Counted from the first letter of the stretch, positions 1,702-14,455 are shown. The stretch: 33,819 nt of DNA from Alphaproteobacteria bacterium (GCA_022827685.1 JAJEIH010000003.1:1-33819); one strand, 5' to 3'. Made by a program: numbers and translations. The notes: a model not told the origin generated them from the sequence alone.

Positions 1702-1986
1702 CGGGTCGGTCTCCTCCGTTGGACTTCGCCGCCGAGAATAACGGATTGCGGGCGGCGCGGCAGCAGGTAACCTCTTCCCCGTGAAATACAGCCTCGAAAA
1801 GGCGAGCCGTCGCCGGGAACCAGGAAACCGTAGCCCTTCCCCGGGTCGTATCATTTGACTGTCAGGGCAGCCGGCCAGCGCGATAGTTGATACGGGACGA
1901 GACCATCCTTGAGGCCGCTATACTGTGCCGTTCGTGCCGTTATTCTGATGGTGCAACACGAAAGACAGGGAAGGGAGTTCTTCTGA

Positions 1987-2244
1987 ATGTTCGACGAATC
2001 CTCCCTGATGAAAGGCCAGCTCCGGAAACTCAATGCGTTGCGCAGGTCCTTGGGCCGCACATCGCCGACGAGGTGTTCGCCAGGTGGTTCTAGCAGGCAG
2101 CCGAGAAACCGGAGGCCGACGTGAATGCCGGGATCATCGCCGATACGTTGCGGGGCCCGCTTCGGGAAGGAAAGCTCTCGATCCAGCGCGGCGGCTATGT
2201 CGTTCGCCGGGGGCCGCGGGCGCGCAATCGTCGAGCCCGCCTGA
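1987..2244 (+). pseudogene. Decayed small conserved hypothetical gene (frameshifts plus stop)
   Basis: An ATG at 1987 follows a good ribosome site (GGAAGGGAG) and reads MFDESSLMKGQLRKLNALRRSLG in two adjoining stretches. The sensible reading then moves to the next frame (PHIADEVFARWF), hits a TAG at 2091-2093, and continues after it as NAGIIADTLRGPLREGKL and SIQRGGYVVRRG. It moves frame again for GRGRAIVEPA and ends at TGA 2242-2244. The concatenated product, about 85 residues, resembles small basic proteins in alphaproteobacteria that start MFDxSxLxKGxLRKLNALRKSxG, as I remember them; their function is unknown to me. At least two frameshifts and one stop indicate a dead gene. The flanks (1702-1986 and 2245-2400) show no other coding signal. 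Confidence 0.6.
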
Positions 2245-2400
2245 GAGTGACCGGTTGCCGGCTCCCGGTCGGATGGTTCTGCAAGGGGAGCGGCCGGACC
2301 ATGAGAGCGGTACCGGTCGCTCGGGCTTCCGGTCCTGACCGGGCCGGTCTCGCGTTCGAACGCCCGTGCGAAGCGGCATGAACTTGGGGAGCCGTACTCC

Positions 2401-3675
2401 GTGGAAATGAGCCTGACACTCATTCTGGCTGCGGCAATTGTCGCGGGTCTTTACATGGCCTGGGCGATCGGCGCCAACGACGTGGCCAATTCGATGGGGA
2501 CGTCGGTGGGCTCCGGGGCGATCACGGTCGGCGGCGCCATCGTGATCGCCGGGACGTTCGAATTCCTCGGGGCGTTTCTTGCCGGCGGCGAGGTCACGTC
2601 GACGATCCGCAAGGGCATCATCGACGCCGAGGCTCTGGATGACGACCCCGACCTGCTGGTCGTCGGCATGCTGTCGGCATTGCTTGCGGCCGCCGCCTGG
2701 CTGACAGTCGCTTCCAGGTTCGGTTGGCCCGTATCGACCACGCACTCGATCGTCGGAGCCATTATCGGGTTCGCCGTGGTCGCGATAGGCGTCGAGGCTG
2801 TCCACTGGTGGGACGTGGCGACGATCGCGGCAAGCTGGGTGGTCACACCGGTTCTCGCCGGGGCAATTGCGTTCCTGCTGGTGCTGAGCGTGCAGTGGCT
2901 GATCTTCGACAAGGAGGATCCGGCTCTCCAGGCGCGCCGATACGTGCCCGTCTACATCTTCGCCGCGGTGCTCGTGACCGCAACCGTGACCTTCGTCAAG
3001 GGCCTGAAGCATGTCGGCCTGGATCTGAGCATGCCGATGGCGATCCTTTATTCGGCGCTCGCGGCCGGCATCGTCGCCGCGGTGTGCCGCATGGCGATCA
3101 ACAGGTTGAACTTCCGGAGCCTCGAGGCGCCCGGCGGGGGACAATCGCGGTTCAACGACGTCGAGAAGGTGTTCGGCATCCTCATGATCGTGACTGCGTC
3201 GGGTATGGCCTTCGCACACGGCTCCAACGACGTTGCCAACGCGATCGGACCGGTAGCCGCAATTGTCGGCGTGGTTTCGACCGGAGGCGTCGCCGCCAAG
3301 TCGGCGGTTCCCGTCTGGATCCTGCTGATTGGCGCAGCGGGAATCGTGGTCGGCCTGGCGACGTTCGGGTACCGGGTCATGGCAACCATCGGGCGGAGGA
3401 TCACCGAGCTCACGCCGAGCCGCGGGTTCGCCGCCGAATTCGCCGCCGCGTCGACGGTCATCGTTGCGAGCGGCACAGGATTGCCGGTTTCGACCACCCA
3501 GACGCTGGTGGGCGCGGTCATGGGGGTGGGCCTCGCCCGCGGCGTGACCGCCCTCGATTTTGGCGTGATCCGCACCATCCTCATATCGTGGGTGGTGACG
3601 CTTCCCGTCGGAGCGGCGCTCGCGGTTGCGTTCTACTACCTCCTGCGGGCGCTGTTCGGTCAAGGTGCTGGATGA
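2401..3675 (+). CDS. PiT-family inorganic phosphate transporter
   Basis: This 424-residue polytopic inner-membrane protein has the two inverted PHO4 repeats of PiT phosphate permeases. Signature GANDVANSMGTSVGSGAIT lies near residues 24-42, and GSNDVANAIGPVAAI near 274-288. PVSTTHSIVGAIIG and PVSTTQTLVGAVMG occur after each half. These Asn-Asp motifs line the phosphate/cation path. The start is GTG at 2401, eight bases after GGGGAG; an in-frame ATG at 2407 is the alternative. The family imports phosphate, or metal-phosphate complexes, with H+ or Na+. The stop overlaps the next start (ATGA). Many bacterial PiT genes sit beside a PhoU-like DUF47 gene; here the partner is a GPP34 protein instead. 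Confidence 0.9.
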   Translation: MEMSLTLILAAAIVAGLYMAWAIGANDVANSMGTSVGSGAITVGGAIVIAGTFEFLGAFLAGGEVTSTIRKGIIDAEALDDDPDLLVVGMLSALLAAAAWLTVASRFGWPVSTTHSIVGAIIGFAVVAIGVEAVHWWDVATIAASWVVTPVLAGAIAFLLVLSVQWLIFDKEDPALQARRYVPVYIFAAVLVTATVTFVKGLKHVGLDLSMPMAILYSALAAGIVAAVCRMAINRLNFRSLEAPGGGQSRFNDVEKVFGILMIVTASGMAFAHGSNDVANAIGPVAAIVGVVSTGGVAAKSAVPVWILLIGAAGIVVGLATFGYRVMATIGRRITELTPSRGFAAEFAAASTVIVASGTGLPVSTTQTLVGAVMGVGLARGVTALDFGVIRTILISWVVTLPVGAALAVAFYYLLRALFGQGAG

Positions 3676-4310
3676 TGAGACTCGCCGAAGAGTTCCTGCT
3701 CCTGACCCGCGACGAAGACGGAGCGCTGTCGCGGGCCCCCGAGTGGCTGGTCCGCTACGCGCTCGGCGGTGCGGTGCTGATGGATCTCGCGTTGGAGAAT
3801 CGTATCGACACCGATGCCGAGCGGCTGTTCCTGATCGACCCCGCGCCGGTCGGGGATCCGCTGCTCGATCCGATGCTCGTCGAGATCGCGGAAGCCGGAC
3901 GGACCCACGACGCGCTCTACTGGGTGGAACACGCAACCCGGCACGCCGACGAGATTCGGGAAACCGCGCTGGCTCGGCTGGTCAACAACGGCGTCCTGAA
4001 GGTCAGCGACGACCGCTTCCTCAGGATATTCGGGACCCGGCACTACATGCTCGCCGATAACGCAGTCGAGCGTGAGCTGTTCGGGCGGATCCGGGAGGTG
4101 CTCCTGACCGACACAATTCCCGACCCGAGGGATATCGTGATCGTCACCTTGGCGGACGGCTGCGGGCTGATCGGCCATGTCCTGTCCGCGGACGAGCTGG
4201 CGGCGGCTTCGGAACGCATCGAGCTGGTGCGAAAGCTGGAGTTGATCGGCCGGGCATTCCTGAATGCCCTGGATGTGGCCGTCCAGCCGGCCGCGGGCAG
4301 GCTCGATTAG
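3672..4310 (+). CDS. GPP34 (Golgi phosphoprotein 3-like) family protein
   Basis: The 212-residue protein fits the GPP34 fold over its full length. The N-terminal FLLLTRDEDGAL is followed by GGAVLMDLALENRID, then LIDPAPVGDPLLD, a helical middle with RLVNNGVLKVSD, a basic DRFLRIFGTRHY segment, and IREVLLTDTIPDP. In eukaryotes this fold binds phosphatidylinositol-4-phosphate. Bacterial members are mostly uncharacterised, and ligand and location here are unknown. There is no signal peptide or membrane helix. The ATG overlaps the stop of the phosphate permease by four bases, so the two are probably translationally coupled. A link to phosphate transport or membrane lipid is inferred from context only. 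Confidence 0.75.
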   Translation: MMRLAEEFLLLTRDEDGALSRAPEWLVRYALGGAVLMDLALENRIDTDAERLFLIDPAPVGDPLLDPMLVEIAEAGRTHDALYWVEHATRHADEIRETALARLVNNGVLKVSDDRFLRIFGTRHYMLADNAVERELFGRIREVLLTDTIPDPRDIVIVTLADGCGLIGHVLSADELAAASERIELVRKLELIGRAFLNALDVAVQPAAGRLD

Positions 4311-4428
4311 GAACCGTCCCCCGCCTTTCCACCGACGGTCTCCCGCAACGGATAACAGGCCGCGACTCCGTCCTCCGTCAGACCGACCCCAACTTTGCGC
4401 CAGGTGCGGCCCCGGAGAAGAGGATCAT

Positions 4429-4560
4429 ATGAACCGAAACCTTTCATTCCGGCCTGGCGGTTTGGATCCACGGCCTGCATTGGCGTTGTCCGTCAGCGGG
4501 ATCCGCGGACAACGCCGCGAACTACGTGCGCATTTGGATGAGTCGTCCCGAACCGTTTAA
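4429..4560 (+). CDS. Possible small peptide gene (43 aa)
   Basis: An ATG at 4429, preceded by AGAGGA at about eight bases, opens a 43-codon frame ending at TAA 4558-4560. The product is basic and Arg-rich with no recognised domain. A perfect inverted repeat (4482-4516) lies inside it, so the interval may instead be regulatory. Coding status is a guess based on the ribosome site. Confidence 0.25.
   Translation: MNRNLSFRPGGLDPRPALALSVSGIRGQRRELRAHLDESSRTV
4482..4516. repeat. Perfect 11-bp inverted repeat
   Basis: GGCGTTGTCCG at 4482-4492 is mirrored exactly by CGGACAACGCC at 4506-4516 around a 13-base loop. No T-run follows on either strand, so it is not an obvious intrinsic terminator. It could be a transcript hairpin or an operator. 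It lies about 460 bases before the permease-SPFH operon. Confidence 0.5.
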
Positions 4561-4974
4561 CCCGTTGCGACGAAATCCGATGTGCCTGAAACAAACTCCC
4601 GCGATTGCTGATCACAATTACTCCTCAAGAGTTATGAAATAACATATTTTAGGAATCACAATTGCAATGCACTTATCCTCGGCACAATTGTAATATTCCA
4701 TGGAGAATTCGGTTATTTTCCAGTAATCTTCCGGTTCGTGCTCGCCGCATCTCGCGAGTGCAGTAATGTACACGGTAGAGAAAACATAGGCATGCGCTTG
4801 GGACCTACAGGACGCACAAGTGCCCTTTGATCCAACGTCCTTGAGGTGGCCGCGATCCACTTCGCGGGTCTTGTCGGGATGATCGCACAGGCGGATATCC
4901 CGTTGTCCGATACCTGTCCAGGCATTGGGGGCCCATTGCGGATAAGGGCGATAACCTCCTAAGGAAGAACGGTT
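4561..4974. other. AT-rich leader region before the permease-SPFH operon
   Basis: Bases from about 4600 to 4800 are clearly richer in A/T than either flank. The palindrome GTTATGAAATAAC lies at 4631-4643 and might bind a dyad-recognising repressor. On the minus strand a frame is open from about 4990 to TAA at 4618. Its only usual start is GTG at 4860, giving 80 residues with a CASC pair, further cysteines and many aromatic residues. I do not recognise it and there is no convincing ribosome site. The operon promoter must lie here, but no clear -35/-10 pair was found. The ribosome site AAGGAAG (4961-4970 region) lies in a small palindrome, TCCTAAGGA. Confidence 0.4.
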
Positions 4975-7308
4975 ATGGAAACACTCATTCTATTTCTGGA
5001 CTTCCTTTGGTCTTCCTTCCTCCTGTTGGGGCCGATGCTTCTCCTCGGCCTGTTCCTGGCGGGGTTGATCCACGTCTTCATCTCGCGTGAGGCCGTCCTG
5101 CGATGGCTGCATCGGGACAGCCTGGGGTCCGTCGCCTCCAGCGCAGCGATAGGCGTGCCGATGCCGCTTTGCAGCTGCTCGGTGGTTCCCGTGGTGGCGG
5201 AAATGCGGCGCAAGGGCGCCTCGCGATCCGCCTGCATGTCGTTTCTCATCACCGCACCCGAGACCGGCGCCGATTCGATCCTCGTCACCAACGCCTTTTT
5301 CGGTCCGGTGGCCGCCGTCGTACGGCCGGTCATCAGCTTCATAACGGGCGTGGTGGCCGGGGTCTTCTGCATCGGGATGATCCGGGACGACAGGACCGCC
5401 GAACCCGATCCCGCCCGAGACGGGCATCATGAGCACGGCCACGATCATCACGGTCACGACCACGGCCACGATCATCACGGTCATGAGCACGGCCACGATC
5501 ATCACGGTCACGACCACAGCCACAAGACCCTCATCCCGGGCGACGACGACTGCTACATAAGCCCGGGTACGCTCCGGGCGTTCTTCGTCACATGGCTGGG
5601 TCGCCTGAACGACGGCATCGGCCGGGCGCGCTCCATGACCTGGATCAAGCCGGACTTTTACCGCGAATCCCTTTCGCTTCCCGACGCCCCTCCGCCCCCG
5701 AAGGACGACACGGGGCGGGACTTGAGCGGCCTCACCTTCACCACGGTCTGCAAGCATATTCTGCGCTACGGTTTCGTCGAGGTAGCCGACGACATCCTCT
5801 TCGCCCTTCTGGTGGGCGTGCTCCTGGGCGGGGTGCTCTATCTCGCCATACCCGACAACCTGATGGCCAACGAATACGCCCGCTGGCTGTCCTATCCGGT
5901 CATGGTGCTGGTGGGGGTCCCGCTCTACATCTGCGCGTCCGCCAGCACCCCGATCGCCGCCGCACTGGTCGCCAAGGGGTTCAGCCCGGGCGCGGCCCTT
6001 GTCTTCCTGATGACCGGGCCGGCCACCAATACCGGCACCATCGCCATCGTCGCCAGCCAGTTCGGCGCCAGGTTCGCGTCGGTCTATGTCGGCTCGGTGA
6101 TCGCCGTCACGGTGGTGCTGGGGATCGCTGTCGATCTGATCATGATCGCCTCCGGCCTGTCGCTCGCGGTGAACCTGGACGCTTCCGATTCGCCTGCCCT
6201 GGCTGCACTCCAGTGGGCCGGCGCTTTGGGGCTCTTCGCGCTGATGTTCTGGCGCTTCCGGGCGGGAGCGCTGAAGAGCGGGTACGAAGACCTGCTGCTC
6301 AATCTCCGGCCGCTGTCAGGACCGATGAAGGAATGGTGGGCGCGGATGACCCGGAACGCGCCGGTCATGGGCATCTTTCACCCGCGCAGCCGCGCCGGCG
6401 TCGCAGTCTGGCTGTCCGTCGTCGCCGCCTTTCTGATCAGCGGCTTCACGGTGGTGCGCCCGGGAGAGGTCGGATACGGGCGTCTGTTCGGCGCCGTCGC
6501 GTGGCGCGATCTGCCACCCGGGCTCCACTACCTCGCGCCCTGGCCCTTAGCCCGGGCCGACAAATGGCCGGTCCTGGAGGTCAAGTCGGTGACCACCGGC
6601 CAGGCGGGAGAATACCTGACCGGCGACGTCAACCTGATGTCCATGTCGCTGAACGTGCAATATCGGGTGAGGGACCCCTTCGTCTACCACTATCGGATGG
6701 CGAACCCGGAGCAGGTGATCTCGGACAATATCCGCAAGGAGCTGCGCAGGTTCGTGGCCGGACGGACACTGGACAACCTGCTGAACGTCGAGCGCCCGTT
6801 ACTCCAGGCCCACATAGAGAGTGTATTTGAGAAGCGGCTTCCGGGCGGCGACGCCGCGCTGCTCGACGCCATCGATCTTGTGAAGGTGAATCTGCTCTCG
6901 GTGAACCCCGTCGATGGAGCAATGAACTCGTTTCGCGAGGTCTCGAGTTCGCAGGACGACAGGGAGCGCATCATCGTCAACGCCCAGCGCCTGACCGTGA
7001 CGCTGATTCCCCGGGCGCACGGCAACGCGGTTTACGAGGTCGAGCAGGCCAAGGGCGAAGCGACCCGGCGAACCGTTACCTCCGCGGCCGAGAGCGACGC
7101 CATCCGCCGGGTCGCCGGCGCTGTGCGGGGAGCGCCCGAGGTACTCCACAACATGCTCTGGCGGGAAAAGCTGGAAACATCGCTTGCCGGCAGGAGCAAG
7201 ATCATCGTCCCGAGCCAAGAGACGCTCAACAAGGTTGCGCTGTGGAAGTCGGCGAACGGCGGCAGGACCGCGCCAGCCACCGGAAAAGTCGGAGGCCATC
7301 ATGAGTAG
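4975..7308 (+). CDS. Metal permease (ArsP/SO_0444-type) fused to an HflK-like SPFH domain
   Basis: The 777-residue protein joins two families. Residues 1 to about 440 form a permease of the DUF318 type. The first half has hydrophobic helices and the PLCSCSVVP motif (Cys66, Cys68). A linker at 151-183 contains 19 histidines. The second half has the paired VPLYICASASTPIAAALVAKG and TGPATNTGTIAIV segments. Relatives export methylarsenite (ArsP) or Cu/Zn (SO_0444). Residues from about 465 carry a membrane helix (474-488), then an SPFH/band-7 domain like HflK (PGEVGYGRLFG, LNVQYRVRDPFVYHY, VERPLLQAHIESVFE). HflK forms cages with HflC around FtsH. The two modules share one frame with no stop between them. 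I infer a metal exporter tethered to an SPFH scaffold. The stop overlaps the next start by eight bases. Confidence 0.8.
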   Translation: METLILFLDFLWSSFLLLGPMLLLGLFLAGLIHVFISREAVLRWLHRDSLGSVASSAAIGVPMPLCSCSVVPVVAEMRRKGASRSACMSFLITAPETGADSILVTNAFFGPVAAVVRPVISFITGVVAGVFCIGMIRDDRTAEPDPARDGHHEHGHDHHGHDHGHDHHGHEHGHDHHGHDHSHKTLIPGDDDCYISPGTLRAFFVTWLGRLNDGIGRARSMTWIKPDFYRESLSLPDAPPPPKDDTGRDLSGLTFTTVCKHILRYGFVEVADDILFALLVGVLLGGVLYLAIPDNLMANEYARWLSYPVMVLVGVPLYICASASTPIAAALVAKGFSPGAALVFLMTGPATNTGTIAIVASQFGARFASVYVGSVIAVTVVLGIAVDLIMIASGLSLAVNLDASDSPALAALQWAGALGLFALMFWRFRAGALKSGYEDLLLNLRPLSGPMKEWWARMTRNAPVMGIFHPRSRAGVAVWLSVVAAFLISGFTVVRPGEVGYGRLFGAVAWRDLPPGLHYLAPWPLARADKWPVLEVKSVTTGQAGEYLTGDVNLMSMSLNVQYRVRDPFVYHYRMANPEQVISDNIRKELRRFVAGRTLDNLLNVERPLLQAHIESVFEKRLPGGDAALLDAIDLVKVNLLSVNPVDGAMNSFREVSSSQDDRERIIVNAQRLTVTLIPRAHGNAVYEVEQAKGEATRRTVTSAAESDAIRRVAGAVRGAPEVLHNMLWREKLETSLAGRSKIIVPSQETLNKVALWKSANGGRTAPATGKVGGHHE
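5434..5523 (+). repeat. 27-bp tandem repeat encoding the His-rich linker
   Basis: Three near-identical 27-base units start at 5434, 5461 and 5488, followed by a partial unit to 5523. Each encodes HGHDHHGHD or the variant ending HE. The units differ by only a few bases, so the number of copies may change by slippage in steps of nine residues without breaking the frame. The repeat lies between the two halves of the permease module. Confidence 0.9.
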
Positions 7309-8221
7309 AAGAAAGAAGTTCGGAACGGCGGCCGCGATCCTCGTCGCGCTCGTCCTCGCCTGGGACGTCCATTACATTATCGACGAGTCCGAGCAAGGTG
7401 TGCTGACGAATTTCGGCAAGATCGTCCCGCCGGTGAAGGATCCCGGCCTGCACTTCAAACTGCCGACCCCGATCTCCGTCGTGTACAAGCTGGACCGGCG
7501 GGTGCGGCCGCTGATGAACCTCAAGCAGGAACTGATAACCGAAGACCAGAAGAATGTCCTGGTGGACGGCTATCTGTTGTGGCGCATCTCGGATCCCATA
7601 CGCTACGTGGAGGCGATCCGGACCGAGGCCAACGCGGTCAAGCGGCTGAGCGACCTTTACAGGTCGAGCGTCGGTATCGTGGTCAGCAACAAGTCGCGGG
7701 ATGCCTTCGTCAGCCTCGGCCTGCAGCACCAGGACATCACAAAGGCGTCCCAGGAAATCCTCGATCAGGTCAAGCAGGTGGCGGCGGCGGATTACGGCAT
7801 CGAGGTCGTCAGGGCCGGGCTGGTCGAATACACCCTGCCCGCGGCCAACCGACCCAGCGTCATCCAGCGGATGATATCCGAACGTGCCCGTATCGCCGCC
7901 CGCTACCGCAGCGAAGGCGAGGAGCGGGCGATCGGCATCGAAGCGTTCGCCATCAACGAGCACGAAAAGATCATGGCGGCCGCGCATGCCGAGGCCACGA
8001 CCATCCTGGGGCGCGCGGAAGCGGATGCGCTCGAGACGTTGGCCACGGCTTACCGCGAAGATCCGGACTTCTACAAGTTCATCCGGGCACTCGACAGCTA
8101 CGACTCGATCATCGACAAAAACACGACATTGATGCTTCCGGCCGACAACGAACTGTTCAAGTATCTGGACGGCAAGGAAATACCCCTGAAGCCGGCTTCG
8201 TCTGCGCCGGGGCAGCAATAG
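7301..8221 (+). CDS. HflC-like SPFH/band-7 membrane protein
   Basis: The 306-residue protein starts with a basic tip and one membrane helix (about 8-25). The HflC-like SPFH domain follows: ESEQGVLTNFGKI, DPGLHFKLPTPIS, QKNVLVDGYLLWRISDPIRY, then a helical stretch with SERARIAARYRSEGEERA and AEATTILGRAEADALE. The end (YREDPDFYKFIRALDSYDSI) is the usual HflC C-terminal pattern. Length fits HflC (about 290-330). HflC partners HflK in a membrane cage that controls FtsH access. The likely partner here is the SPFH part of the upstream fusion or the next protein. The ATG lies inside the end of the fusion gene after GGAGG. It is probably not the housekeeping hflC, which normally sits directly behind a plain hflK. 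Confidence 0.85.
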   Translation: MSRRKKFGTAAAILVALVLAWDVHYIIDESEQGVLTNFGKIVPPVKDPGLHFKLPTPISVVYKLDRRVRPLMNLKQELITEDQKNVLVDGYLLWRISDPIRYVEAIRTEANAVKRLSDLYRSSVGIVVSNKSRDAFVSLGLQHQDITKASQEILDQVKQVAAADYGIEVVRAGLVEYTLPAANRPSVIQRMISERARIAARYRSEGEERAIGIEAFAINEHEKIMAAAHAEATTILGRAEADALETLATAYREDPDFYKFIRALDSYDSIIDKNTTLMLPADNELFKYLDGKEIPLKPASSAPGQQ

Positions 8222-8233
8222 GGGGCGCCTGCC

Positions 8234-9655
8234 ATGCCGGAAACTCCCGAAGCGTCCCCGACCAGCACACGCATCATATACGCGGTCTTCGACTTCTTTC
8301 GCGACCGCAGAGCAGTGGTGCTGGGATTGCTGGGGGGAATCGTCGTCGCTGCCGTGTTGCTGGACGGCGTCTATATCGTCAAGAAGGAAGAGCAGGCCGT
8401 CCTCACCCGCTTCGGCAAGGTGATCGACCCACGGATCCTGCCCGGGATCCACTACGCGCTGCCGTTCGTCGAACGGGCGCATGTGCGCAAGGTCATGCGG
8501 ATTACCCGGCGCGACGTCGCGACCCGCGACGACACCGGCAAGGTCTCGTTTTCGATTTTGTCGGGTGACGCGAACCTGTTCGAAGCGAATGTGGCGCTGC
8601 AATACAGGATCGAAAACCTGAAGAACTACCTGTACGTCACCGCCGATCCGGAGGCCGTTCTGACGCTCGTGGTGCGTGAGCGCCTGATCGAGATCATGGG
8701 GCAGCACTTCATCGATCTGATATTCACCACCAATCGAGACATTATCCAGACTCGTCTGTTCGAGGATACATCCGAATATCTGAAGGACAACGATATCGGT
8801 ATCGAGCTGCTTGCGCTCAATATCGTGGACCTGCGCCCCATTGAGGAAACCGTGGCCGCGTTCCGGGACGTCAGCGATGCTATCGCCGAGAGCATCCAGG
8901 CGGTCAGCGACGCCAACCGGCGGATGGAGAAGCTGCTTGCGCGCAGCCGCGGCCAGGCGGAAGCGGTGGTCACGAACTCCAAGGCAAGGGCGAGGGAACG
9001 CCGGCTGCAGGCCGAGAGCAGCGCCGAAGTATTTTCCGACCTGCTGGAAGCCTATCGGGGGCAGCCATCCTCGGTCACGGTCACGCGGTACTGGCAGCGC
9101 ATGCGCAACATCTTCCGCGAGGCCACGTTGCAGGCCGTAAATCCCGGCGACGCTTCGACGATCGACATCAACATGGTCGAAGGCTTCATGCCGGGCGTGG
9201 GACGCATGAGCACCGCCCCTGTTGCGGCCGCGCCCACCGGGAAGGCCAGCTTGGCCGGGACCAGACGCACACTGTCCACCGCTAGCGAGACGGCGGGGCA
9301 CGGTTTCGAAAACGTCGACACCGAACGCTTTCTGCTGGACGGGCGATTCCACGCCGCCCGCGGCGAAAGGCACCATCTCAGCACCGCCAAGCTGCGCTCT
9401 TTGATATTCGATGACCTGTCGATCTTCAGTCACCGCCATGTCGCGCCGACCAGCGTCGGCGCGGCCGTGGAGCGGAACGAGAAACCGTTGGTCGACCAGA
9501 CGACCGTCATCCCTGACGACGAGGACGAGAGCCGGCCGGCGAAACCGGGGCAGGCCAAGCCCGTCAAGGAGAAATCGGGAAAGAAAACGGACGGGGCGAA
9601 ACGGGAGACAGGCTCGGCTGCGAACGGGAAGAAGTCCGATGGCCCAGCCGAATAG
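8234..9655 (+). CDS. Second HflK-like SPFH protein with long charged C-terminal tail
   Basis: In this 473-residue protein a membrane helix at about 28-48 is followed by an SPFH domain (KEEQAVLTRFGKVIDPR, LPGIHYALPFVE, ANVALQYRIENLKNYLY, TSEYLKDNDIGIELLALNIVDLRP). The helical zone is rich in Ala, Glu and Arg (SRGQAEAVVTNSKARAR). This matches HflK up to about residue 310. The remaining ~150 residues are unlike HflK: a segment with HHLSTAKLRSLIFDDLSIF, then a Lys/Glu/Pro-rich, probably disordered tail. It starts 12 bases after the previous stop, and the next gene begins inside its end. With the upstream genes it gives three different SPFH subunits in one operon, which suggests a hetero-oligomeric assembly. 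Confidence 0.85.
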   Translation: MPETPEASPTSTRIIYAVFDFFRDRRAVVLGLLGGIVVAAVLLDGVYIVKKEEQAVLTRFGKVIDPRILPGIHYALPFVERAHVRKVMRITRRDVATRDDTGKVSFSILSGDANLFEANVALQYRIENLKNYLYVTADPEAVLTLVVRERLIEIMGQHFIDLIFTTNRDIIQTRLFEDTSEYLKDNDIGIELLALNIVDLRPIEETVAAFRDVSDAIAESIQAVSDANRRMEKLLARSRGQAEAVVTNSKARARERRLQAESSAEVFSDLLEAYRGQPSSVTVTRYWQRMRNIFREATLQAVNPGDASTIDINMVEGFMPGVGRMSTAPVAAAPTGKASLAGTRRTLSTASETAGHGFENVDTERFLLDGRFHAARGERHHLSTAKLRSLIFDDLSIFSHRHVAPTSVGAAVERNEKPLVDQTTVIPDDEDESRPAKPGQAKPVKEKSGKKTDGAKRETGSAANGKKSDGPAE

Positions 9656-10835
9656 GCTTGGCGGGACGGTCCTGATTTTGCTGCTGCTGTGCGCCAAAGC
9701 TGCGCCAGCTGCGGAGACGAACCAGCCCGGCGTGACCGGAGACATTATCGCTTTCGCTCAAAGCAGCTGTTTTTCTGGCGTTTGCGGTGCCACGGGCCTT
9801 CGGTACCGTGCCGGCATTCGCGCCGCTTTCCACGAACGCAATGTCCGCGGCGGCGTCAAGGGAAGAAAGCTCAGGCTGACGGCGCGGGACGACGCTTACG
9901 ACCCGGAAACAGCCGCTGCCAACGCGGCGCTTTTCGCATCTGACGAGAAAGTCTTCGCTGTCATCGGCGGCTTGGGCACGCCAACAGCGTTGCGCATGGC
10001 GCCGGTCCTCCGCAATGCCAAGGTGCCCTTCGTCGGTATCCTCTCGGGTGCCAGCTTTCTCCGGGACCGCGTGCGCTTCCCCAATATAGTCAATCTGCGC
10101 ACCGGTTATGCGGAGGAGGCCCGAAAGCTTGTGGCCTACATGCATGGCCGGCTGGGCGCGCGTCGTTTCGGTGTAATTTTCCAGGATGACGCGTTCGGCT
10201 ACTCGGTGCTGGCGAGCTACCGAGAAGCGCTAAAGGCCCTCGGTTTGCCGATCCTGGCCAAGGCGTCCTATTCCTGGCACAGCCATTCGATTCACAGCAC
10301 GCTGTTCGTCATGGAGAAGGCGGATCTCGATGTCGTGCTCATGGCGGCGACCACGTCTAACGTCACCAGCGCAGTCGACGCGGCGCGGTCGTTCGGTCAC
10401 GACTACGTTTTCGGGATGCTGTCGATCGTCGACCTCGACCGGATCGCCGGCCAGCTCGAGCGCCGCTTCGGTCCGGCCGTGGGCACCCGGGTCCTGCCGG
10501 ACGTACGGGATGGCGGCGATGCGCTGGTGAAGCGCTTCCAGTCCGCGCTGTCCGTCTGGCAGACCGCAGCGCCGGAGGAGGACGCGACCGCGGATGCATC
10601 GAGCCTTGAGGGCTACATACTGGGCCGCTTCGTCATCGCCGTTCTCGAGAGGATGCCGGACCTGCCGAACCGGGAAGGGTTCTTGGAAACGGCGTTGATG
10701 AGCGGGCCTTTCCTGATCGAAGGTTGGGAGATTGCGTTCGCCGATGGCGGGAATGTCGGATCGGAGTATGTGCGGCTAGTCGAGTTCTCCTCGACAAAGA
10801 CCCGGGATGTGACGGAAAAGGCGGTCGACCAGTGA
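9639..10835 (+). CDS. Type I periplasmic binding protein (branched-chain amino-acid/amide family)
   Basis: The 398-residue protein has a hydrophobic signal peptide (LILLLLCAKAAPAAE, cut near residue 25). It is followed by a two-lobed Leu/Ile/Val-type binding fold: GDIIAFAQSSCFSG, RDDAYDPETAAANAALF, VIGGLGTPTALRMAPVL, VPFVGILSGASFLRD, GVIFQDDAFGYSVLASY. Such proteins deliver amino acids, amides or other small solutes to ABC importers or act as sensors. No ABC permease or ATPase is present in this operon, so an accessory or sensing role with the SPFH proteins is plausible. Two cysteines close to the mature N terminus (SSCFSGVCG) could form a disulfide or bind metal; this is a guess. It overlaps the previous gene by 17 bases. 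Confidence 0.85.
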   Translation: MAQPNRLGGTVLILLLLCAKAAPAAETNQPGVTGDIIAFAQSSCFSGVCGATGLRYRAGIRAAFHERNVRGGVKGRKLRLTARDDAYDPETAAANAALFASDEKVFAVIGGLGTPTALRMAPVLRNAKVPFVGILSGASFLRDRVRFPNIVNLRTGYAEEARKLVAYMHGRLGARRFGVIFQDDAFGYSVLASYREALKALGLPILAKASYSWHSHSIHSTLFVMEKADLDVVLMAATTSNVTSAVDAARSFGHDYVFGMLSIVDLDRIAGQLERRFGPAVGTRVLPDVRDGGDALVKRFQSALSVWQTAAPEEDATADASSLEGYILGRFVIAVLERMPDLPNREGFLETALMSGPFLIEGWEIAFADGGNVGSEYVRLVEFSSTKTRDVTEKAVDQ

Positions 10836-11323
10836 AAAAAATCGACGAATTCGAACGCGAAGAGACCGGCGAAGAGTGGTTGCGGGAGGGCTACAAAGTC
10901 GTGTCCATGCGCCGGAACATCATGTTCCGGATGCTCCTCGAATCGACCCGCCTGCTTCTGTTCGGCAATGCCGGGGGCACCGCGCTGATCATCGGTTTCA
11001 TGAGCACCGCCACGACCGGCGGGGACGAGGGTGTGTTTCACTGGTTCGCCCTGGCGACGGTGCTGGTCTTCGGAGTGGGCATTCTGACCTCCGCACTGAC
11101 CATGTTCTTGGTCACCATCGTCTCGGTGCGGGAGGCGCATGGAAGCGAAACCGCGCTCAAGCGTTTCGTCGAGGGCGAATGCGGTCGTTCCGAAGTGATG
11201 TTCAACGTCGAAGACCGGACTTGGCGCACCGCGGACTGGTCGACCCTGACGGGCATTGTCAGTGCCGCCTGCTTCATCCTCGGCGGGGTCTCCGGCATCG
11301 CCCTGCTGGTGGTTTTCTTCTGA
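10832..11323 (+). CDS. Small three-helix membrane protein of unknown function
   Basis: The start is GTG at 10832, overlapping the upstream TGA as GTGA; an upstream in-frame ATG would lie deep inside the binding-protein gene. The 163-residue product has a charged N-terminal helix (KKIDEFEREETGEEWLREG) and three hydrophobic segments at about 38-56, 67-95 and 137-162. A soluble stretch between the last two holds Glu, Arg and one Cys. I do not recognise the family. As the last gene of the SPFH operon and translationally coupled to the binding protein, it may anchor or pair with that protein. Eighteen bases separate it from the convergent znuB stop. Confidence 0.65.
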   Translation: MKKIDEFEREETGEEWLREGYKVVSMRRNIMFRMLLESTRLLLFGNAGGTALIIGFMSTATTGGDEGVFHWFALATVLVFGVGILTSALTMFLVTIVSVREAHGSETALKRFVEGECGRSEVMFNVEDRTWRTADWSTLTGIVSAACFILGGVSGIALLVVFF

Positions 11324-11340
11324 GCGCCGCGCGACGCCCA

Positions 11341-12144
11341 TCAGCCATCCCGGCGCGACCGTCCGCGAACGGGAATCAGCAGACTCCCGGCGAAGGCCAG
11401 GCTCGCCGCGAGCACAATACCCGGCCCCGCCGGTATGTCCCATTCCAGCGACACGAACAACCCGACGATTACCGAAACGACCCCGATCGCCGTCGCTGCC
11501 ACCGCCATCTGTTCCGGCGTCGTGACCATGCGGCGCGCGGCGGCAGCGGGAATAATCACCAGTGCCACGACCAGCAGCATGCCGACGATTTTCATCCCGA
11601 CCGCAATCACCGCAGCGAGCAGGAATAGAAGCAGCAGGCGGATTCGCTCGACCGGTACGCCCTCCACGGCCGCAAGGTCCTGGTTGACCGCCATGGCAAG
11701 CAGATTGCGCCACTGCCAGGAGAGCACCGCCGTAACTACCGCGGCGGTGCCGAAGATCAAGGCGAGGTCGAACGCGCCCACTGACAGGATGTCGCCGAAG
11801 AGATAACCGATCAGGTCGACGCGCATCCGTTCCATGAACGCGACGACGACGAGCCCGGCCGCGAACACTGCGTGGGCCAACACACCGAGCAAGGCATCGA
11901 CGGAAGTGTAGCGCTGGCGCTCCAGCAGCACCAGGCACCCTGCGAGCAGGAAACAAATGGCGAAGACGGCGAGAATCGGCTCGATATCGAGCAGAAAGCC
12001 GAGCGCGATGCCAAGCAGTACCGCATGCGCCAGCGCAGTGCCGAAATACGCCATGCGCCGCCATATCACAAAACAGCCGACCGGCCCGGCGGCTAGCGCC
12101 GCCCCGATCCCGCCTCCCAGTGCGCGCAGGAAGAAGTCTTCCAT
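11341..12144 (-). CDS. znuB: Zinc ABC transporter permease ZnuB
   Basis: The 267-residue integral membrane protein belongs to the ABC-3 family. It has about eight hydrophobic segments, and the typical parts are WRRMAYFGTALAHAVLLGIALG, the DALLGVLAHAVFAAGLV segment and VGMLLVVALVIIPAAAARR near residues 185-205. It forms the channel for zinc (or manganese) import with ZnuC and ZnuA. Its ATG overlaps the znuC stop by one base (TGATG). It is the last gene of a minus-strand znuA-znuC-znuB operon. Zinc rather than manganese is inferred from the His-rich ZnuA. Confidence 0.9.
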   Translation of the reverse strand: MEDFFLRALGGGIGAALAAGPVGCFVIWRRMAYFGTALAHAVLLGIALGFLLDIEPILAVFAICFLLAGCLVLLERQRYTSVDALLGVLAHAVFAAGLVVVAFMERMRVDLIGYLFGDILSVGAFDLALIFGTAAVVTAVLSWQWRNLLAMAVNQDLAAVEGVPVERIRLLLLFLLAAVIAVGMKIVGMLLVVALVIIPAAAARRMVTTPEQMAVAATAIGVVSVIVGLFVSLEWDIPAGPGIVLAASLAFAGSLLIPVRGRSRRDG

Positions 12145-12953
12145 CAGCCCTGTCTGTGGAAGTCGCCGTCGGACGCGGCGTCGTGTGTGCGGAGCGGCTC
12201 GCCCAGGGCGTCATGGCGATGATCGTGGGAGTGTTGATACACCGCGAGCGTCTCCGACAGATGCGGGCCGAAGAGAGAGATGAACTCGGGATCGCGCAGG
12301 ACAGTTTGCGGCCGGCCTGTGCAGCACACATGCCGATTGAGGCACACCACGGTGTCGGTCGCGGCCATGACGAGATGCAGGTCGTGCGACACGAGAAGCA
12401 CGCCGCAGCCATGCCGGTCGCGGATGTCGGAGATAAGTTGGTAGAGTTCGCTCTGGCTTGTGACGTCCACGCCCGCCAGGGGCTCGTCGAGGACCAGGAG
12501 GTTGGGCTCGCGCAACAGTGCCCTGGCGAGCAGTACGCGCTGCATCTCGCCGCCGGAGATCTCCGCCAGCGGATAGCCAAGAATCGGATCGGCCCCCACC
12601 TCGTCGAGAACCTCTTCAAGCTTCTTGCGCGGAGACGGCGCGCCGAGGGTCAGGAACCGCCTTACCGTCATCGGCAGGATGGGGTCGCGATGCACGTGCT
12701 GGGGCGAATATCCGATGCGCAGCCCGGGAGCCTGGATCACGGCGCCGTCGTCCGGTTTCATGATGCCGAGAATGACGCGTATCAGCGTCGACTTGCCCGC
12801 GCCGTTGAGCCCAACCAGGGTCACAATCTCCCCGGCGCGAACCGCAAGGTCCACGTCATCCAGAACCCTCCGACGCCCGAATTGAACGCTGACGCTCCGC
12901 GCCTCGACCAAGGGCGGGGCCTCGGAGAGTTCCGTAGATGGTGCAGGGTTCAT
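12144..12953 (-). CDS. znuC: Zinc ABC transporter ATP-binding protein ZnuC
   Basis: This 269-residue ABC ATPase has Walker A GLNGAGKS (48-55), Q-loop YSPQHV, signature ISGGEMQR, Walker B LLVLDEP and switch histidine SHDLH. The C terminus is His-rich (HSHDHRHD), as in many ZnuC proteins, and may bind zinc. It powers zinc uptake through ZnuB. It sits 46 bases after znuA and overlaps znuB by one base, so the three genes are one transcript. Confidence 0.9.
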   Translation of the reverse strand: MNPAPSTELSEAPPLVEARSVSVQFGRRRVLDDVDLAVRAGEIVTLVGLNGAGKSTLIRVILGIMKPDDGAVIQAPGLRIGYSPQHVHRDPILPMTVRRFLTLGAPSPRKKLEEVLDEVGADPILGYPLAEISGGEMQRVLLARALLREPNLLVLDEPLAGVDVTSQSELYQLISDIRDRHGCGVLLVSHDLHLVMAATDTVVCLNRHVCCTGRPQTVLRDPEFISLFGPHLSETLAVYQHSHDHRHDALGEPLRTHDAASDGDFHRQG

Positions 12954-12999
12954 TCAGAATCCTTGCGCATTGCGTCTCGTGACGGCAAGCGCCCGGTGG

Positions 13000-13950
13000 T
13001 CAGCCGTCGCCGAGGCAGCCGGAAATCGAATCTCCCAGGCCGCGCATGACCTCGAACCATGCGTCCGGGCCCGGCCGGATATCGGCGCCGATCGGATCCA
13101 GCACGGCAGTCTTCACTTCGGTCCCTTCCACAAGGGTGCGGACCAGGTCGGGCTCGAATTGGGGCTCGGTAAAGACGCAGCGGATCCCATGCTCGGAGAG
13201 GGCGGCGCGCAGCTCGACGAGACGCTTGGCGCTAGGTGCGCGCGCCGGGTCGACGGCAACGGCGCCCTTGCCGTCGAGCCCGTAAGCTCTCTCGAAATAC
13301 TGGTAGGCATCGTGGAAGACGACAAAGGCGCGCCCGCGCACCGGCGACAGGCGTTCCCGCAGGGATGAATCCATGGCGGTGATCCGCTTCCTCATCGCCT
13401 CAGCGTTGGCGCGGTAGGCCGGGGCGCGGCCCGGATCGACGCGAATTAACACATCGGCCACGACATCGACGATCCGGCGGGCATTCTCGGGCTCAAGCCA
13501 GAGATGCATGTTGTACTCGCTATGCTCGTGACCATGGTCCTCGTCTTTGTCGACATGGGGCTCGTCATGGTCGTCCTCTTCCCATATCCCGCCTTCGCGG
13601 TTTTTGAGCAAGCGCATCCGGGGCGTCTCGTGAACGGTCACGACGGTGGCTCCGGATCCGAGATTCTCGATGGCGCGGTGGAGGAAGGTCTCCATGTTCT
13701 CGCCTATCCACACGATCAGCTTCGCCTGGTTCAGGCTCCGGGCCTCCGACGGGCGCATCTGGTAGGTGTGGGGCGAAGCCGCGCCCTTGAGCAGCAATAC
13801 CGGCTTGCCGGTGTCGCCCATCACCCCGGCGACGAGGGAATGAATCGGCTTGACACTCACCACAACGGTCAGATCCTGCGCGCGCAGCCCGTGGGGGGCC
13901 AGGAGCGCGCAGAGAGAAAAAAGAACCATCGTCTTTCGGATGAAATTCAC
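13000..13950 (-). CDS. znuA: Zinc-binding periplasmic protein ZnuA
   Basis: The 316-residue cluster A-I solute-binding protein starts at GTG 13950, placed six bases after GGGGAGG; the longer frame from TTG would swallow that ribosome site. A signal peptide ends near Ala24. Metal-ligand histidines fall at the family positions: His37 (KPIHSL), His61 (SPHTYQ) and His149 (MHLWLEP). An acidic, His-rich loop (about 123-145, DDHDEPHVDKDEDHGHEH) precedes the third histidine and is typical of zinc-specific members. The protein captures periplasmic zinc for ZnuBC. A probable Zur site lies upstream, so expression should rise when zinc is scarce. Confidence 0.9.
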   Translation of the reverse strand: MNFIRKTMVLFSLCALLAPHGLRAQDLTVVVSVKPIHSLVAGVMGDTGKPVLLLKGAASPHTYQMRPSEARSLNQAKLIVWIGENMETFLHRAIENLGSGATVVTVHETPRMRLLKNREGGIWEEDDHDEPHVDKDEDHGHEHSEYNMHLWLEPENARRIVDVVADVLIRVDPGRAPAYRANAEAMRKRITAMDSSLRERLSPVRGRAFVVFHDAYQYFERAYGLDGKGAVAVDPARAPSAKRLVELRAALSEHGIRCVFTEPQFEPDLVRTLVEGTEVKTAVLDPIGADIRPGPDAWFEVMRGLGDSISGCLGDG

Positions 13951-14101
13951 GGAAAGCCTCCCCAATGGATGCTGAAAGCTGTTGCGTTCCCAGCAATGGA
14001 GTTTCGGTCACCTTGCCCGCTTTTGCTCAAGTCTCCGATATGCCAGCCATGGCGACAGCAACGGGCTTACGGTACCGAAGACGCCGAAGCCTGTTTCGTT
14101 C

Positions 14102-14118
14102 GTAACATTATAGCATAG
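14102..14118 (-). promoter_or_regulatory. Probable Zur operator and -10 element of znuACB
   Basis: Read on the minus strand the site contains GCTATAATGTTAC, close to the GTTATAATATAAC-type core of alphaproteobacterial Zur sites as I remember it. It includes a perfect TATAAT (plus-strand 14107-14112). It lies about 155 bases before the znuA start. The -35 is weak. Zinc-loaded Zur bound here would block the polymerase. The assignment rests on motif resemblance and the zinc genes. Confidence 0.45.
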
Positions 14119-14233
14119 TTCTCTGTCCCGATTGCATCTCGTTCGAAGGTCCGCCCGGCTGCTACCCCGTGAAGCGAGGGGCGACCCGGAGGCGGCAGGC
14201 AGCCGATGACCGAGACCGGCCCGGCGCTTCCCC

Positions 14234-14455
14234 ATGCGGAACGAGTCGCGCTTCTGCTTGAAGCAGATGGGCGGCCCGCACGGGGAGGAAGAGGAGAGCG
14301 CCTTTGCCGCGCGCGCCGGCCTGGTGGCGCTCCGGGGCAGCCTCACCGTGGCGTCGTCCCACAAGCTCGCCGACGCCATCGGCCCGGAAACCCGCTAAGA
14401 CGCCCGCCGCCTCGCCGAGCGCATGCTGCGGGAGAAGGACGGGGGCGCTGCGTAG
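14234..14455 (+). pseudogene. Unidentified ORF remnant with internal stop
   Basis: A frame opens at ATG 14234 (MRNESRFCLKQMGG), runs to TAA at 14396-14398, and continues in the same frame as DARRLAERMLREKDGG to TAG at 14453-14455. The amphipathic, Arg/Glu-rich ending looks protein-like, but I cannot name a family and there is no good ribosome site. It may be a gene remnant or chance openness in GC-rich DNA. The rest of 13951-14532 holds only the znuA promoter region. Confidence 0.2.

Follow-up and report, generated by a model that had tools for sequence, protein, structure and literature searches.

A permease-SPFH fusion operon beside zinc uptake genes in an alphaproteobacterium, with a predicted Zur operator

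The five-gene operon and its distribution

The stretch of DNA analysed here (hereafter, the window) comprises 33,819 nucleotides of an Alphaproteobacteria bacterium (GCA_022827685.1, JAJEIH010000003.1:1-33819). At positions 4975 to 11323 it contains a five-gene operon headed by the gene of PermK, a permease fused to an HflK-like SPFH module, and the operon lies beside the zinc uptake genes znuABC. The five genes are the following:

4975..7308, + strand: PermK, an SO_0444-type permease fused to an HflK-like SPFH module (profile searches, motifs, structural relatives)
7301..8221, + strand: HflC2, an HflC-like SPFH protein of 306 amino acids (aa), ATG start (profile searches, structural relatives)
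8234..9655, + strand: HflK2, a second HflK-like SPFH protein, 473 aa, with a long charged tail (profile searches, structural relatives)
9639..10835, + strand: SBP, an orphan periplasmic binding protein of type I, LIVBP-like, 398 aa, ATG start (Peripla_BP_6 match)
10832..11323, + strand: a small helical membrane protein of no known family, 163 aa, GTG start

PermK has 777 aa and two halves: (i) a permease (approximately residues 1-430) that matches ArsP_1 of Pfam (PF03773; residues 7-386, E 8.5e-45); and (ii) an HflK-like SPFH module (approximately residues 493-760) that matches Band_7 (PF01145; residues 493-662, E 1.2e-8). The domain search thereby bears out the first-pass annotation, which had read a CSCS-motif permease with a His-rich linker fused to an HflK-like SPFH domain. 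The permease half is named "SO_0444 family Cu/Zn efflux transporter" by NCBIfam (NF033936; 323.2 bits, above the cut-off of 300). Like that family, it has CSCS and CASAST motifs, kept without exception in relatives as PLCSCS and YICASAST, and a His-rich loop, with 19 His in residues 140-190. Unlike its SO_0444 relatives, of which the unfused ones fetched are mostly of ~350-415 aa, PermK adds an SPFH module and stands in an operon beside zinc uptake genes. Metalloid (ArsP) export is not favoured, in view of the fit to the SO_0444 model and of the zinc context; given that same zinc-uptake context, the Cu/Zn export that the family match would suggest is to be taken with caution. The two halves are joined by a linker of net charge +6, followed by one extra transmembrane (TM) segment (476-494). 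HflK/C face the periplasm (PMC2636767) and, as in HflK, the SPFH domain of PermK would be periplasmic and its linker cytoplasmic, which fits the linker charge and the extra TM segment.

Band_7 scores above the gathering score (23.6 bits) in all three SPFH proteins: PermK (35.7 bits), HflC2 (83.8 bits) and HflK2 (52.6 bits). HflC2 exceeds the cut-off of the HflC equivalog TIGR01932 (159.8 vs 134.4 bits), and its placement among other HflC proteins is weakly resolved in the tree. The tail of PermK and HflK2 score under the cut-off of the HflK equivalog TIGR01933 (116.4 and 128.9 bits, respectively, vs 159.4); judged by their sequences, both are HflK-like and are not filed as orthologous HflK. 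The best solved relatives of the SPFH module of PermK, of HflC2 and of HflK2 are chains of the Escherichia coli HflK/HflC cage. There are seven SPFH matches in all in the 4.3 Mb host genome, including a separate hflK-hflC-like pair on another contig.

SBP begins with a hydrophobic signal and has four invariant residues, Cys44, Cys49, His214 and His216. Because solved LIVBP relatives have other residues at these positions, SBP may bind metal, either free or as a complex, or else contain a disulfide. The fold search with the small membrane protein returned helical-bundle matches only, all of them insignificant. As had been described from the first, the genes overlap or nearly do so: PermK and HflC2 by 8 nt, HflK2 and SBP by 17 nt, and the SBP stop and the small membrane protein in the sequence GTGA, with a gap of 12 bp between HflC2 and HflK2.

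A scan of GTDB genomes gave 14 loci with full-length PermK relatives (73-98% identical). The five-gene order is kept in all 14 and in two further genomes from a sample of the class, which together with the window brings the total to 17 loci, and both halves of PermK and their junction are conserved across these 17. Hence, the proposed unit, in which an HflC-like, an HflK-like, a type I binding and a small membrane protein follow PermK, is real; the fusion is not unique and its neighbours are conserved with it. The full-length fusion is present in four of the 385 sampled genomes of the class. Among these 385 genomes, the small membrane protein occurs in those four only, and none was found on plasmids; it is therefore part of the five-gene unit. 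Assembly error or mis-binning is ruled out, for many assemblies contain the fusion, and same-genus genomes are ~90-95% identical to the window flanks. One named metagenome-assembled genome, JAJDVM01 (L008, L020), contains the fusion twice in full, the copies being ~82% alike, and once more as a fragment; it is probably a mixed bin.

A second, divergent SO_0444-HflK fusion is found in another family (L026:742-2835; 697 aa, ~30% identical to PermK), with 373.6 bits against the SO_0444 model NF033936. Its contig is short and ends just upstream of the fusion, where an apparent HflC start was read directly upstream. The SPFH tree and the permease tree, in which a common origin of the two permease-SPFH fusions was sought, both have long branches. 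Two other long frames, G423 (653 aa) and G537, are not permease-SPFH fusions; G423 is an HflK with a long upstream open frame and no transporter domain. No description of a permease-SPFH fusion was found in the open-access literature searched.

Zinc uptake genes and Zur-like operators

Three zinc uptake genes follow the operon on the other strand, and two Zur-like sites are predicted in the window:

11341..12144, - strand: znuB, zinc ABC permease (profile searches)
12144..12953, - strand: znuC, zinc ABC ATPase (profile searches)
13000..13965, - strand: znuA, zinc-binding protein (profile searches)
4631..4643: predicted Zur-like operator GTTATGAAATAAC, 344 bp upstream of PermK
14101..14117: predicted Zur-like site CGTAACATTATAGCATA, upstream of znuA

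In all 17 fusion loci, znuA and/or znuBC lie within ~10 kb. As these genes are arranged in several different ways, the znu link goes beyond the inheritance of a single neighbourhood. In three genomes the znu and fusion genes are co-directional: L014 (znuCBA, then permK), and L017 and L021, where znuA, permK, hflC, hflK, SBP, the TM gene and znuCB run in one direction. The native znu locus of the host lies elsewhere, on contig C74.

A palindromic matrix was trained on znu promoters only and then scored on the fusion promoters. In 9 of the 11 loci, no site outside znu scores better than the one upstream of PermK; in the window, the PermK site is second best outside znu. Motif finding on the fusion promoters alone gave a similar AT-rich palindrome, of the ATGTTATA type. 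In the host genome, the exact pattern GTTATN3ATAAC has two copies: (i) the operator before the fusion; and (ii) a site on C74 between the native znuA and zur-znuC-znuB. Matches with one mismatch are no commoner there than those of a reversed control pattern and, therefore, weight is placed on the exact sites only. The Fur-family gene of C74, after which znuC and znuB come, is best named Zur (NCBIfam, 113.8 bits, below the curated 167). This zur-like gene between znuA and znuC (L079, G000:C74) was missed by the PF01475 search and named by NCBIfam.

Zur control of the five-gene operon is predicted, and its putative regulation points to zinc shortage. The first-pass annotation, which had thought of metal or metalloid export, overlooked both the tie to zinc uptake and the existence of kindred SPFH trios that go with other metal transporters, among them the hmtA locus bound by Zur. 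Plain export under metal excess is a poor fit because the operon is always next to znu, is sometimes in line with it, and has a Zur-like operator.

SPFH trios, metal transporters and rival explanations

In Pseudomonas aeruginosa, the SPFH genes PA2439-PA2438-PA2437 (PaFlo5-7), annotated as HflK, HflC and HflC-family, lie with PA2435, HmtA (PMC4542158, PMC11761036, PMC8531726). This locus is raised in a znuA mutant (PMC4542158) and by zinc depletion (PMC4542158, PMC11761036), and the PA2439 promoter is bound by Zur in a zinc-dependent manner (PMC8531726). The searched passages of PMC13086221 do not link PaFlo5-7 to zinc uptake or hmtA.

Quartets of the P. aeruginosa kind occur on plasmids of Klebsiella, Paraburkholderia, Burkholderia and Rhizobium, and in Alpha-, Beta- and Gammaproteobacteria; their first protein is present in 10 of the 378 genomes sampled from the phylum. 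All eight chromosomal quartets that were read have the order [5-6 TM domain]-HflK, HflC, HflK and P-type ATPase; they do not count as eight independent cases, since a single family supplies five of them and a second one two. In six of the eight, the best match to TGTTATANTATAACA within 10 kb sits 20-90 bp upstream of the first quartet gene; in a seventh (L100), the second-best match sits 139 bp upstream. Across the quartet loci (L064, L065, L066, L067, L069 and L099-L106), the ATPase is of the P1B type and the N-terminal domain of 5-6 TM segments has no Pfam family.

The window operon resembles the hmtA locus and the quartets in the order HflK-HflC-HflK, the metal transporter and the Zur-like site. 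It differs from them as follows: (i) their transporter is a separate P1B-type ATPase, and the window operon has no ATPase; (ii) the first SPFH protein of the quartets bears a domain of 5-6 TM segments, in the place of the ArsP_1/SO_0444 permease of PermK; and (iii) the hmtA system lacks in-line znuABC and a type I binding protein. The P-type ATPase HmtA of P. aeruginosa is a reported importer.

Another transporter-HflK fusion, followed likewise by HflC and HflK, is found on plasmid NZ_CP018172.1 of Aquibium oceanicum (L058:8362-9909). Unlike in the window operon, the transporter is a CDF (Cation_efflux) membrane domain; the trio is followed by a 150-aa open reading frame, a PpiC-type peptidylprolyl isomerase and a metal P-type ATPase, with copper genes around. 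No second CDF-SPFH fusion was found among the 385 genomes of the class. In the SPFH tree, subunit types group within each system, and the joins between systems are weakly supported.

The reading that we favour, with moderate confidence, is that of a Zur-controlled SPFH cage which carries a metal transporter and handles zinc in zinc shortage, working with ZnuABC. Three different SPFH subunits of the HflK/HflC type would assemble a periplasm-facing cage in the inner membrane. As one subunit covalently carries the SO_0444-type permease, the permease would be built into the cage, and the cage would bring the small membrane protein and, probably, SBP together with the permease in a single patch beside ZnuABC. 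A cage that carries the permease is a reasonable proposal, in view of the solved E. coli HflK/HflC relatives noted above for the three SPFH proteins. HflK/C form a cage around FtsH; the cage proposed here would differ in having three subunits instead of two, one of them bearing a transporter, and no link to ftsH is seen. It would also be like the stomatin dome, an SPFH cage enclosing a transporter (AQP1 and UT-B; PMC12407830, preprint), which differs in being non-covalent, eukaryotic and on the cytosolic side. As regards transport, we lean slightly towards net delivery of zinc to the cytoplasm, or its retention, over disposal, given that the module is deployed alongside the importer.

Several observations weigh against this reading. 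Cu/Zn tolerance depends on the SO_0444 protein that has been characterised, and this implies efflux (PMC3219624). Zur acts as an activator of exporters in Streptomyces (PMC5472717), and czcD of Xanthomonas is listed as such a case (PMC6103462); therefore, a Zur site leaves the sense of regulation unfixed. With the znu-trained matrix, L018 has no Zur-like site upstream of PermK, and the PermK site of the window scores below most loci, at a value reached by 13 of 300 shuffles. In P. aeruginosa, one study saw no repression of the hmtA mRNA itself upon addition of zinc (PMC8531726), and mutants deleted for the SPFH genes had no strong phenotype in the conditions tested (PMC13086221). Finally, the AlphaFold2 model of PermK is unusable (pLDDT 33.6), and the named relatives are metagenome-assembled genomes, with no isolate among them.

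A broader possibility, which we hold only tentatively, is that SPFH trios are a general Zur-controlled chassis. At least three unrelated classes of transporters (the SO_0444 permease, the CDF, and the P1B ATPase with a polytopic SPFH partner) would be attached to an HflK-HflC-HflK cage or coupled with it, and the periplasmic chamber of the cage would be the place where exporter-family transporters release or capture zinc locally for ZnuABC or periplasmic zinc enzymes.

The strongest rival, although in our opinion a rather doubtful one, is an ordinary exporter of Cu/Zn or toxic metals in an SPFH microdomain, with Zur (i) activating it at high zinc, as in Streptomyces and Xanthomonas; or (ii) inducing, at low zinc, the expulsion of wrong metals (Co, Cd, Cu) that enter via the induced importers. 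The permease score above the cut-off of the SO_0444 efflux model and the requirement for SO_0444 under Zn/Cu stress speak for such an exporter, as does the cobalt gained by the P. aeruginosa znuA mutant (PMC4542158). Nevertheless, the co-directional znu genes of three genomes and the same type of palindrome at both promoters favour co-expression with uptake, not opposite regulation; the wrong-metal version is compatible with that co-expression. According to a second rival, the SPFH trio would tune the zinc protease FtsH in zinc shortage, the permease being a passenger or a local supplier of zinc to FtsH. All three SPFH proteins do resemble the FtsH partners HflK/HflC, and an FtsH link was suggested for PA2437-2439 by authors of P. 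aeruginosa papers. But the host has its separate hflK-hflC-like pair, metal transporters recur with such trios (fused or as the next gene), and no FtsH gene is seen in the operons, all of which makes this explanation unlikely. A functionally neutral fusion, arisen by read-through of neighbouring genes without joint assembly, would agree with the rarity of the full-length form but is very improbable in view of the conserved halves and junction, the divergent fusion of L026 and the CDF-SPFH fusion in the same position of another trio.

For most bacterial SPFH cages, no cargo other than FtsH is known. With a transporter fused to a cage subunit, the cargo would be named by genetics, and the coupling of cage and transporter becomes testable. 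The operon suggests that, under zinc shortage, bacteria may hold metal transporters in SPFH cages, as well as a possible function for orphan SPFH trios such as PaFlo5-7; it also raises the question of why exporter-family transporters would be deployed during zinc starvation.

The genomic block around the operon

The operon and the znu genes belong to a larger block, whose remaining features are:

1798..14271 (ends approximate): block of ~12.5 kb with Pit, GPP34, the five-gene operon and znuBCA, missing from the corresponding position in two same-genus genomes
2401..3675, + strand: PHO4/Pit-type transporter, which accompanies the block in many loci
3672..4310 (start approximate), + strand: GPP34-family protein after Pit

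In these two genomes (L072 and L073), the flanks of the block are ~90-95% identical to those of the window and have ~1.2 kb of other DNA between them. It follows that the ~12.5 kb were gained or lost as a unit. Further along the window, at 20034-23639, lies a gene for an Eco57I-type restriction-modification methylase (1201 aa), missing at the same place in L073. In L008, a 70-bp repeat (84%) of window positions 1728-1797 is located after the block.

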